Part shown: one piece after another, positions 34,240-37,437 of the stretch
Position numbering within the stretch: position 1 is the stretch's first letter
Layout: each line of letters starts with the position of its first letter
NCBI GenBank assembly: GCA_947175205.1
Contig: CAMWLS010000017.1
Coordinates: forward strand, 1-42,562
Direction: 5' to 3'
DNA: 42,562 bases
From: an uncultured Porphyromonadaceae bacterium
Lineage (GTDB): Bacteria > Bacteroidota > Bacteroidia > Bacteroidales > Muribaculaceae
Position numbers and translations under genes: made by a program
Notes under the pieces: generated by a model
What the model was told of the DNA's origin: nothing
Databases searched by the model: none
What the model saw: only the letters and a program-made list of their open reading frames with translations

Positions 34240-34686
34240 ATGGCAAATACCACACTGGACATATTTTTCCCGGACCTGAGTACCTCCCAGCCTTTACCCT
34301 ATGCTGACTCCGGAATTCAGGCCGGCTTCCCGTCACCGGCTCAGGACTATATCACGGAGAGCATAGATCTCAACCGTGAGATAGTCCGTCATCCGGCGGC
34401 TACTTTCTATGGCCGTGTGGCAGGTGATTCCATGATTGAGGAAGGTATTGAGCCCGGAGATATTGTGGTGATTGACCGCTCTCTTGAGCCTTCTGACGGA
34501 GACCTGACCGTGTGCTGTCTTGACGGTGAATTTACACTGAAACGTATTTCACTGCGCGCCGGTAATGTATGGCTGATACCTTCTAATGAAACCTTTGACC
34601 CTATCTTGGTTACTCCGGACAGCCGTTTTGAAATCTGGGGTGTAGTGACACATACCATCAGAAATAACCGCCGGCCCCGCCACTGA
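34240..34686 (+). CDS. umuD: UmuD-like S24 self-cleaving protein
   Basis: UmuD becomes active for translesion synthesis after RecA-stimulated self-cleavage. The 148 residues show the cleavage site Ala28-Gly29 (QAGFPSP), the catalytic Ser64 (GDSM) and Lys101 (FTLKR), exactly 37 residues apart as in E. coli UmuD. The start is ATG 34240, 30 bases after proS. umuC follows after 33 bases. No LexA box was recognised by eye, and no separate TAnnTTTG promoter is seen before the gene. Confidence 0.95.
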   Translation: MANTTLDIFFPDLSTSQPLPYADSGIQAGFPSPAQDYITESIDLNREIVRHPAATFYGRVAGDSMIEEGIEPGDIVVIDRSLEPSDGDLTVCCLDGEFTLKRISLRAGNVWLIPSNETFDPILVTPDSRFEIWGVVTHTIRNNRRPRH

Positions 34687-34719
34687 AAGCGGTGCTGTTT
34701 GCTCAGACCCTCCTCCAGC

Positions 34720-35982
34720 ATGTACGGGCTTGTTGACTGCAATAACTTTTTTGTTTCCTGTGAGCGGATTTTCAACCCCTCTCTCAGGAACAGACCCGTG
34801 GTGGTTCTGAGTAATAATGACGGCTGTGCCGTGGCTCTGAGTAATGAAGCCAAGGCTCTGGGAATAAAACGCGGAAACCCGTTCTTTGAGATACGAAGTC
34901 TGTGTGAGGCCAACAATGTGGCTGTATTCTCCGGCAATCACCGCCTTTATGGTGACATATCCTCCCGTGTCATGGCCACCATATCAGAGCTTGTACCTGA
35001 AATTGAAGTGTACTCCGTGGATGAGGCATTCCTGAATTTAAACGGCATAGGACCTGATGAGCTACCCGGCTTTAACCGTGAACTGGTAAGGAGGATACGC
35101 CGTAACGTGGGAGTTCCCGTCTCACTGGGCGTGGCGCACACAAAGACCCTGGCAAAAATAGGGGCGCGTTTTGCAAAAAAATTTCCCGGATACAGGAGCG
35201 TATGTGCCGTGGACACGGAGCAAAAACGCCGTAAGGCCCTAAGTCTCACCCCGGTGGGTGACGTCTGGGGAGTGGGAAGGCGCCTTAACCGCCGTTTTGC
35301 ACAGGTGGGTATAGATACCGCTCTTGACTTGGCTGACAGACCGTCCACGGATATTGAGCGCCTGCTGAATGTAACAGGTCAGCGCACATGGCGCGAGCTT
35401 AACGGGGAAGCCTGTATAAGCATGGAATACACAGAGAAGACCAAGAAACAGCTCTGCTGCTCCCGCTCATTTGGAGAAATGACCACTGACATAGAGCGCC
35501 TCTCTGAGGCTATAGCCGCATTCAGCAGTATACTGGGGCGTAAGTTGCGAGAACAGAAAATATGTGCTGTCTCTCTAAGCGTATTTCTTCATACAAACGC
35601 TTTCCGTCAGGACTTGCAGCAATATTTTAACAGCGCAGCTTACTCTCTGGATGAGCCCACTTCAGACACCATGCGTATCACGGAAGCCGCAGTGTCCGCT
35701 CTCAGGCGCGTTTACCGCAGAGAGTACTACTATAAGAAAGCCGGAATACTGATAACTGAGACTGTACCTGAATCAAACATCCAGCAGTCACTGTTCTCAA
35801 CACCGGCTGATCGCGAGCGGCGACGCAAGCTCATGAGCGTGGTGGACTTTATTAATGCCGGCTCTTGTGCCAGAGACACAGTTCATGTGGCCCGCTATAC
35901 TCCGGTGACATCCTGCATGAGACAGGAACACATATCACGCAACTACTCTACCCAACTCAAAGATATAATTCAAATCTATTAA
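34720..35982 (+). CDS. umuC: UmuC-like Y-family DNA polymerase (Pol V subunit)
   Basis: UmuC is the catalytic subunit of error-prone Pol V. The 420 residues open MYGLVDCNNFFVSCERIF (palm acidic residue and steric gate region), contain the VYSVDEAFLNL motif with the catalytic Asp-Glu, the SLGVAHTKTLAKI finger region and a C-terminal little-finger domain. I use ATG 34720; a TTG at 34699 would add seven residues without family support. An HU-type gene follows after 10 bases. A third member, RecA, is not in this window. Confidence 0.95.
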   Translation: MYGLVDCNNFFVSCERIFNPSLRNRPVVVLSNNDGCAVALSNEAKALGIKRGNPFFEIRSLCEANNVAVFSGNHRLYGDISSRVMATISELVPEIEVYSVDEAFLNLNGIGPDELPGFNRELVRRIRRNVGVPVSLGVAHTKTLAKIGARFAKKFPGYRSVCAVDTEQKRRKALSLTPVGDVWGVGRRLNRRFAQVGIDTALDLADRPSTDIERLLNVTGQRTWRELNGEACISMEYTEKTKKQLCCSRSFGEMTTDIERLSEAIAAFSSILGRKLREQKICAVSLSVFLHTNAFRQDLQQYFNSAAYSLDEPTSDTMRITEAAVSALRRVYRREYYYKKAGILITETVPESNIQQSLFSTPADRERRRKLMSVVDFINAGSCARDTVHVARYTPVTSCMRQEHISRNYSTQLKDIIQIY

Positions 35983-35992
35983 ACAGCATATA

Positions 35993-36277
35993 ATGGATAA
36001 CAAGCAGTTCATATCACGTCTGAGCAAGCGTCTGGGACGTCCGCAGTGCGAAGCCTCCGCTCTTGTGGATGCTCTTGCGCTAATTTTGCGGGAGCGATGC
36101 AGTACGCTTGAAACTGTGGCCGTTCCTTCCTTCGGAAACTTCACACCGGTAAAGACTGATGAATATGTACAGGTGGATTCCGTTTCAGGCGTTTCCATGC
36201 TGTATCCGCCCAAGATTTCCGTTTCCTTTGTTCCCGCCACCAGGCTAAGAAAAGCACTTGCCGATGAAAGAAAATAA
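35993..36277 (+). CDS. HU-family DNA-binding protein (divergent, small)
   Basis: The 94-residue protein has the HU layout: a helical N-terminal part (KQFISRLSKRLGR to RERC), the turn VPSFGNFTPVK, a beta arm region and the C-terminal helix (ATRLRKALADERK). It differs from canonical HU in the arm (DSVSGVSMLYPPKISVSF). It would bind DNA without sequence preference, probably as a dimer, perhaps with the next gene's HU domain. The next gene starts within its last 14 bases, so the two are translationally coupled. Confidence 0.85.
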   Translation: MDNKQFISRLSKRLGRPQCEASALVDALALILRERCSTLETVAVPSFGNFTPVKTDEYVQVDSVSGVSMLYPPKISVSFVPATRLRKALADERK

Positions 36278-37403
36278 CGCTCCTCAGGCACGCACTGTGG
36301 TTCTGTCTGAGTTAATAGAAGAACTGTGCCGTCTCACAGATACTGACTCAGCCACAGCAAAGGCTTTTACTCTGGATTTCTTCACCACCATAGAAGAAGC
36401 CCTGGCTGCAGGTGAGAAAGTGATAATCAAAGGTATAGGCCGTTTCTCTTATGAAGGCGGAAATGTAGTGTTTACCCCTGACAACACTCTGGCAGAAGCG
36501 GTTAATGAGCCTTTCAGCATGTTTGAACCGGTGGAATTAGCCCCCGGCGGAGCGCTTGAGCTCAATGAAGAGGATTCAGATTACCCGGGTAATGATGAAA
36601 TCAGTGTTTCTGAATCCATAGTAGGGCAGGCGCCTCAGGGAAAGTGGATGGATGAGTTCCAGCCGGAGACGGAATATCATGAATCTGAAGAAGAACAACC
36701 AGGTTCTGAGCCGTCAGAGGATGACAGCAATGATAAAGTTATGGAAACTGTTGTTACTGACCAGGAGGAAACTTCAGCACTCACATCAAAGAATGTAGTG
36801 GTAGACTCACAGCCTGCCCCTGAATACCCTGCCGCGGTTGCCACAGAGCCTGCTGCTTCACCGGCCGCAGAAACGCCCGCCGTACAGGCTGGAGAACCTT
36901 CTAAAACGCATACAGCATCAAAGGGGCTCACTTCAGGCGAGCCCATGCTGGTGGAGCGTATTCATATAAAGGAAGTACACCGCGGGCTTAACAAATCCAG
37001 CGCATGTCTTATGGCCATACTCATGTTTATAGCCGGATGGGTGGCCTGTATTTTCATCCAGCCCATTCTGGCAAACCTCTATAACAGCTATACATACAGC
37101 CCGCTGCCTGAGTCAAAACTCATGACTGAGACGACCAAGGTTAAAGAGCAGACTGATACGCCCACAGCGCTTGCCAAACCGGAAGCTCACGCTGAGCCTG
37201 CACTCAAACAGACTGCCGCCCCTACGGAGGTTTATGATACAGTGACAGCCAAAAGATACCTTACCACTATTGCAAGAGACCATTACGGCTCCCGTGACAA
37301 GTGGGTTATAATTTACGAGGCAAACAAGGATGTTATTACCAATCCTGATGTCATTGCACCGGGAACAATAGTGCGCGTTCCGCCGTTGGATACAGTGAGA
37401 TAA
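36264..37403 (+). CDS. HU-domain protein with acidic linker, transmembrane helix and LysM-like domain
   Basis: The 379-residue protein (ATG 36264) has, in order: an HU-like domain (residues ~10-90, with IIKGIGRFSYEGG and a shortened arm); a long acidic, Pro/Ala-rich linker (~95-235, with ESEEEQPGSEPSEDDSND); a single transmembrane helix (~247-272, CLMAILMFIAGWVACIF); a short linker and a LysM-like domain (~328-376, YLTTIARDHYGS to APGTIVRVPP). By charge the HU domain would be cytosolic and the LysM domain periplasmic, touching peptidoglycan. A TTG at 36258 would add two residues. Related HU-SPOR fusions are known in Bacteroidetes; a LysM version is less familiar to me. Confidence 0.88.
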   Translation: MKENNAPQARTVVLSELIEELCRLTDTDSATAKAFTLDFFTTIEEALAAGEKVIIKGIGRFSYEGGNVVFTPDNTLAEAVNEPFSMFEPVELAPGGALELNEEDSDYPGNDEISVSESIVGQAPQGKWMDEFQPETEYHESEEEQPGSEPSEDDSNDKVMETVVTDQEETSALTSKNVVVDSQPAPEYPAAVATEPAASPAAETPAVQAGEPSKTHTASKGLTSGEPMLVERIHIKEVHRGLNKSSACLMAILMFIAGWVACIFIQPILANLYNSYTYSPLPESKLMTETTKVKEQTDTPTALAKPEAHAEPALKQTAAPTEVYDTVTAKRYLTTIARDHYGSRDKWVIIYEANKDVITNPDVIAPGTIVRVPPLDTVR

Positions 37404-37404
37404 A

Positions 37405-37437
37405 TTTGTAAGCGGATTAATTTTTTTGCTATCTTTG
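37405..37437 (+). promoter_or_regulatory. Promoter of the DUF4290-rimM-ompA-uvrB unit
   Basis: TTTG at 37405-37408, 21 bases, then TATCTTTG at 37430-37437. The mRNA would start near 37443, which supports the ATG at 37462 for DUF4290. Confidence 0.65.

Follow-up and report, generated by a model that had tools for sequence, protein, structure and literature searches.

Does the membrane protein encoded downstream of the umuDC-like genes of the window (the whole stretch of 42,562 nucleotides analysed here) tie the chromosome to the cell wall? A first-pass annotation of the sequence had described a lone fusion, in which an HU-like DNA-binding fold, an acidic linker, one membrane helix and a LysM-like domain follow one another, and had proposed that a single molecule could bind nucleoid and peptidoglycan together. 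To our knowledge, little is known about the position of the nucleoid relative to the envelope in Bacteroidota.

Domain organization of the HU-LysM protein

The open reading frame is real, starting with ATG at 36264 and with the stop codon ending at 37403 (379 aa), and the proposed order of HU, acidic linker, single membrane helix and LysM was borne out by profile matches, AlphaFold, Foldseek and hydropathy (Table 1). The HU profile PF00216, for which a match had been expected within residues 10-90, matched residues 15-62 with 28.3 bits against a cut-off of 22.4. In the AlphaFold model, which was built with 71 relatives, residues 14-84 take up the HU fold with block pLDDT values of 90-97, and Foldseek with this model ranked HU structures at the top (E 3.8e-4); the best target-normalised TM-scores were obtained for chains of about 67-73 residues, which are HU cores (for example 1b8z, 0.94). 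The linker gave block pLDDT values of 39-53 over residues 101-240, carries a net charge of -27 in the stretch counted, and varies strongly in sequence among relatives.

One hydrophobic helix follows, located at residues 244-273 by hydropathy (peak 2.64) and at 244-277 in the AlphaFold model. Lysine plus arginine residues are more numerous before than after the helix in 81 of the 107 unique large proteins collected below (11 show the reverse and 15 are equal), and the LysM motif lies C-terminal of the helix in 103 of the 107. The charge distribution favours the orientation foreseen in the first-pass annotation, in which the HU end would be cytoplasmic and the LysM end periplasmic.

Table 1. Features of the HU-LysM locus (positions of the window)
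Feature	Position	Strand	Basis
S24 peptidase (UmuD-like) and Y-family polymerase (UmuC-like) genes, context only	34240..35982	+	PF00717, PF00817
Small HU, 94 aa, partner subunit	35993..36277	+	PF00216, AlphaFold, gene overlap, arm charge
HU-linker-TM-LysM protein, 379 aa	36264..37403	+	ORF, profile matches, AlphaFold model
Armless HU domain, residues 14-84	36303..36515	+	PF00216, AlphaFold, Foldseek
HU DNA arm replaced by tight turn, residues 64-67	36453..36464	+	alignment, model
Acidic linker, predicted disordered, residues 100-240	36561..36983	+	pLDDT, charge
Single transmembrane helix, residues 244-273, N-in favoured	36993..37082	+	hydropathy, model
LysM domain, Kbp type, residues 316-374, predicted periplasmic	37209..37385	+	NF008399, 7pvc, AlphaFold, Foldseek

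A divergent LysM domain

The LysM domain had been placed at residues 328-376, and this held for the NCBIfam model and for Kbp and failed for Pfam. PF01476 (LysM) gave no match on the large protein of the window at E<=1 and, in a set of 72 proteins made up of the window protein and its relatives, matched 2 at E<=0.01, while NF008399, an NCBIfam LysM protein model, matched residues 316-374 with E 1.8e-10 and 69 of the 72 members at E<=0.01; its score in the window protein, 41.4 bits, is far under the whole-protein cut-off of 134. The LysM domain of Kbp (7pvc) matched the same domain by sequence (9e-5), the AlphaFold model includes a confident LysM-like fold at residues 323-372 (block pLDDT 95-97 at 321-370), and Foldseek also matched the LysM of Kbp-based sensors, 7vcm and 8zex. 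Sequence matches and model agree in predicting a LysM fold, and the domain is divergent, beyond the reach of the Pfam LysM model. Since it misses that model and Kbp, its nearest relative with a solved structure, goes by the name of a potassium-binding protein, the predicted binding to the wall is not certain. In the excerpt of PMC10434189, BT0577 of B. thetaiotaomicron is given as a LysM protein.

A small HU protein as the partner subunit

The end of the small HU gene overlaps the start of the large gene by 14 bases. PF00216 covers residues 1-89 of its product with 42.2 bits (cut-off 22.4), the AlphaFold model has the HU fold with pLDDT 94.7, and the protein is basic overall (pI 9.4, net charge +4). 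For comparison we used 110 loci of relatives, the window being one of them, with 107 unique large proteins; 80 loci come from named genome records, being the top 80 among 476 confirmed stretches, and 30 came from the order search. All 110 were chosen via the large protein, the presence of which is thus given by construction and that of the partner is not.

A small HU gene with an ATG start was found directly upstream in 91 of the 110 loci, and 66 of these 91 pairs overlap. As the gene finder accepted ATG only and a minimum of 60 aa, it missed partners with other start codons, and its 19 misses were re-examined: 10 have a partner with another start codon, 4 loci (L061, L143, L144 and L154) carry one-chain fusions of small HU and HU-TM-LysM, 4 begin at a contig edge and were excluded from the testable set, and L049 showed no partner HU in the 700 bases upstream. 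Of the 106 testable loci, 105 therefore have a partner HU, separate or fused; counted by unique large proteins, the figure is 102 of 103. L049 is the sole exception; its partner may sit elsewhere in that genome. By profile comparison the first HU of all four fused chains resembles the small HU and the second the anchored HU, the weakest first domain scoring 16.7 bits (L168, the same as L144). The fused chains were read at L061:1570-2847 (named loci), L177:6563-8827 (family f30; the full reading of the L154 fusion), and L167:7489-8865 and L168:6912-8234 (family f87). As controls, no separate extra HU was found within flanks of up to 1.5 kb in 29 one-chain SPOR loci or in 28 ordinary-HU loci.

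The true unit is two genes, a small HU and an anchored HU. The small HU in front, which had been suggested as a dimer partner, was confirmed in that place by its near-constant presence, and on the same ground the lone-fusion reading was rejected; the large protein is rather one half of a two-gene module like the HU-HU-TM-SPOR proteins discussed below. The fused genes, together with the paired loss of arms described next, give indirect support to a heterodimer.

At E<=1e-5 the large protein was matched in 126 of 149 genomes of the family of the window and in 105 of the 110 good ones, and the layout, helix followed by LysM motif, was verified in 30 of 30 fetched loci; it is therefore not a chance product. 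Searches at the level of the order (99 of 198 genomes matched) and of the phylum (40 of 198) overstate the architecture, because many of the matched rows are plain HU or plain LysM.

Linked loss of the DNA-binding arms

HU and IHF (PF00216) share their fold with both subunits of the window pair, and grip DNA with two basic beta-ribbon arms; two such arms were not found in the window pair, which adds a membrane anchor and belongs to a lineage in which the arm is lost or uncharged. The shortening of the arm in the large HU noted in the first-pass annotation agrees with the alignment with the full-arm relatives L011, L019, L021, L029 and L031, against which a tight turn stands in place of the arm, and in the model strands 59-64 and 67-72 flank the turn. 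The arm of the small HU is of full length, with a net charge of -2 and no lysine or arginine at its tip; in 25 ordinary HUs of the order, the 23 residues that follow the GFGxF motif have a mean charge of +4.4. All 63 small HUs compared keep both arm prolines.

Arm classes, taken from simple sequence patterns, were assigned to 102 of the 107 unique large proteins, giving 45 full, 54 short and 3 unclear. The mean charge of the small-HU arm is +3.75 next to a full large arm (n=40) and -0.6 next to a short one (n=45), and the mean net charge of the HU pair is +6.9 with full and -4.0 with short arms; the window pair has -2 (large HU -6, small HU +4), and 25 ordinary HU monomers have a mean of +8.4. 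On a tree of 84 pairs, built without the arms and midpoint-rooted with no support test, the arm state changes 5 times, whereas 200 shuffles of the labels gave 28 changes on average and never fewer than 21, and the root state is full. Of the classed proteins 18 stayed outside the tree: the arms of 3 were unclear, for 14 no small arm had been parsed, and 1 was judged unsafe. For the same 84 pairs the correlation between the arms of the two subunits is 0.47 by contrasts (p 6e-6) and 0.81 raw. Judged from these patterns, both arms tend to go together, and appear to have done so several times over. A correlated loss suggests that the two arms had a joint function, and argues against ordinary DNA gripping in the lineage of the window. 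The pair at L079 is an exception, with a short loop in the large HU and a fully basic small arm of +4, and possibly represents a recent arm loss.

Relatives with intact arms look DNA-binding, the full-arm forms scoring as ordinary HU with 82.2 and 78.1 bits. It is plausible that DNA tethering was the ancestral state and became weakened in the lineage of the window, where, given the basic small HU, weak DNA binding via the HU body is possible.

Proposed role of the HU pair

With the layout, the partner, the linked arm loss and the distribution of the module in hand, we consider the window protein to be, probably, the anchored subunit of an HU module that consists of two subunits and spans the membrane. 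The HU pair of this module most likely serves here as a docking platform. In the cytoplasm, the small HU would pair with the HU domain at the N-terminus of the large protein; from there the long acidic linker of the large subunit, acting as a tether, and its single membrane helix would lead to the LysM domain, which most likely holds peptidoglycan. Where relatives keep both arms, the pair most likely holds on to DNA and would link nucleoid and wall. In the lineage of the window, with the large arm deleted and the small arm no longer positively charged, DNA bending of the HU type is probably lost or weak, and the pair would then be a wall-anchored platform for a protein partner, or weakly for DNA via the HU body. 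The searches gave no positive evidence of such a protein partner.

The closest alternative is a working nucleoid-to-wall tether in the window organism itself, with the HU pair binding the chromosome via its body or together with ordinary HU subunits. Both subunits do have the HU fold, the small HU is basic, its arm prolines are conserved, and the genome of the window also has two genes for ordinary HU; but the large HU is acidic and the pair as a whole negative, the arm is missing on one partner and acidic on the other, and the arm loss is repeated and correlated. With the arms for DNA degraded in both HUs, it is doubtful that a simple link from chromosome to wall operates in the window organism, and we regard this alternative as unlikely. 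That this particular protein binds the chromosome in the usual way of HU was not supported, and the tether idea fits the relatives with both arms better than the window protein for which it was put forward.

Relation to other membrane-anchored HU proteins

Burroughs and colleagues reportedly described in 2017 proteins of Bacteroidota composed of HU-CCDC81_bac_1, HU-CCDC81_bac_2, TM and SPOR (PF18174/PF18175), and their survey of the HU clade may already mention LysM forms. These proteins share with the module of the window two HUs, a membrane helix and a C-terminal domain of the wall-binding type, but combine the two HUs in one chain with SPOR, whereas the window has two overlapping genes and LysM. 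The likeness extends to single domains in a profile comparison, for which only 10 SPOR-type sequences, those fitting a motif, were used. The first HU of the SPOR type resembles the small HU (94% with short-arm and 86% with full-arm forms, against 30% with ordinary HU), which is its best match outside its own set. The second resembles the anchored HU, the short-arm form being best (97%, score 58); as ordinary HU follows with 95% and a score of 44, the likeness of the second half is weaker. By Pfam, HU-CCDC81_bac_1 matches 21 of 63 small HUs and bac_2 5 of 63, whereas among the 72 large proteins bac_2 matches 32 and bac_1 is absent from the match list; HU-HIG matches 28 of the 63 and 41 of the 72, respectively.

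The window protein was rejected as an ordinary HU-CCDC81 protein: there are two genes, a LysM domain, and scores under the Pfam cut-offs (the large HU reached 21.1 bits with PF18175, where the cut-off is 35, and the small HU 12.8 bits with PF18174, where it is 26), and Pfam gave no SPOR match in the large protein. The genome of the window does encode one HU-HU-TM protein, P0002, with both HU domains above cut-off (PF18174, 52.4 bits; PF18175, 56 bits), a hydrophobic stretch from residue 176 and a weak SPOR end (13.8 bits against a cut-off of 21).

Two families outside the order were also found. Family f132 (L241, L242 and L247) has, like the window, a small HU followed by an armless HU-TM protein in two genes, but with SPOR in place of LysM (43 and 41.4 bits in L241 and L247, the two scanned); it forms a bridge to the one-chain SPOR proteins. 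Family f142 (8 loci) consists of small HUs and full-arm HU-TM proteins, and no LysM was matched by Pfam in the four proteins scanned. As far as domain predictions go, HU pairs come with LysM or SPOR, in one chain or two, and the window protein appears as a variant of a wider module, in which a membrane stem carries an HU pair and a wall-binding domain that can be exchanged. Caution is needed on a common descent of the LysM and SPOR types, because the likeness of the full-arm forms to ordinary HU exceeds that to the SPOR type.

In layout alone, the window protein may also be likened to the polar landmark proteins HubP/FimV, with which it shares a periplasmic LysM, one membrane region and a long acidic cytoplasmic region. 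The chain order of HubP/FimV is reversed, and its TPR-type FimV domain lies inside, where the window protein has HU and gave no Pfam match to a cytoplasmic TPR/FimV domain. According to the excerpt of PMC12918733, the LysM of P. putida FimV is required for binding to sacculi. Among the matches listed from the open-licence literature, titles and the beginnings of abstracts named no characterised HU-LysM protein.

In a broader and more tentative proposal, to which we give somewhat less than an even chance, HU-pair stem modules with LysM or SPOR would extend across Bacteroidota as an ancestral chromosome-wall tether that was repeatedly turned into a wall-anchored protein scaffold by coordinated arm loss. 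If true, this would be a widespread, unstudied trans-envelope module common to Bacteroidota; the protein itself is already widespread in the family of the window. As relatives with and without DNA arms coexist, natural orthologues allow the roles of DNA and protein binding to be compared directly.

Gene neighbourhood

The umuDC-like genes end 10 bases before the small HU. Only 10 of the 80 named loci, those at contig edges counted in, have genes of this kind on the upstream side, and a function set by these neighbours was not adopted. Downstream of the pair, 105 loci offer enough sequence; 71 of these have a gene for a MoxR ATPase there, 68 of them within 322 bases, and the next gene clusters were matched by eye to the DUF58- and BatA-type genes that the genome of the window carries. 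MoxR is missing downstream in the other 34 loci, the window among them. In the genome of the window MoxR, DUF58, BatA (twice) and BatD, as named by Pfam, are located on another contig, and no HU pair was present in the 14 kb read around them (L160, C1:17000-31000), although an HU pair precedes MoxR in most examined relatives. The link between HU pair and MoxR was lost, or never formed, in the lineage of the window. Of 18 regions taken at the level of the order, 10 have a rimO-like gene in front of the pair, and 4 of these 10 are without MoxR; MoxR was found in 8 regions, and both genes in 6 (rimO and ftsY were named by eye).

This neighbourhood bears on another explanation, namely a sensor or regulator bound to the membrane, in which LysM would feel the wall and the HU pair act on nearby DNA or on MoxR/Bat proteins, tuning envelope-stress genes. 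The frequent MoxR gene, followed by DUF58- and BatA-type genes, speaks for such a role, as does the origin of the Bat genes, in the excerpt of PMC3557215, from an aerotolerance screen in B. fragilis. The gene is, however, absent from a third of the loci including the window, with the bat genes placed elsewhere, and the rimO-like gene before the pair in regions devoid of MoxR raises the possibility of plain gene order. We consider the sensor improbable, slightly more so than the tether in the window organism; a Bat-operon protein was likewise not adopted as the main reading, as the link is frequent in relatives and absent in the window. Least credible of all is a degenerate remnant under relaxed selection and devoid of important function, since, for all the loss of arm and charge and the highly variable linker, good genomes of the family nearly always keep the protein (105 of 110), core residues are invariant in both proteins across relatives, and the gene pair stays together, often overlapping.

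A simple promoter scan gave 4 sigma-70-like sites, as compared with 4.5 in shuffled sequences, and the same scan gave 9 terminator-like sites against 3.5 in shuffles. Before the DUF4290 gene, at 37405-37437, TTTG and TATCTTTG stand 21 bases apart, a pair which we take to resemble a Bacteroidota promoter motif.
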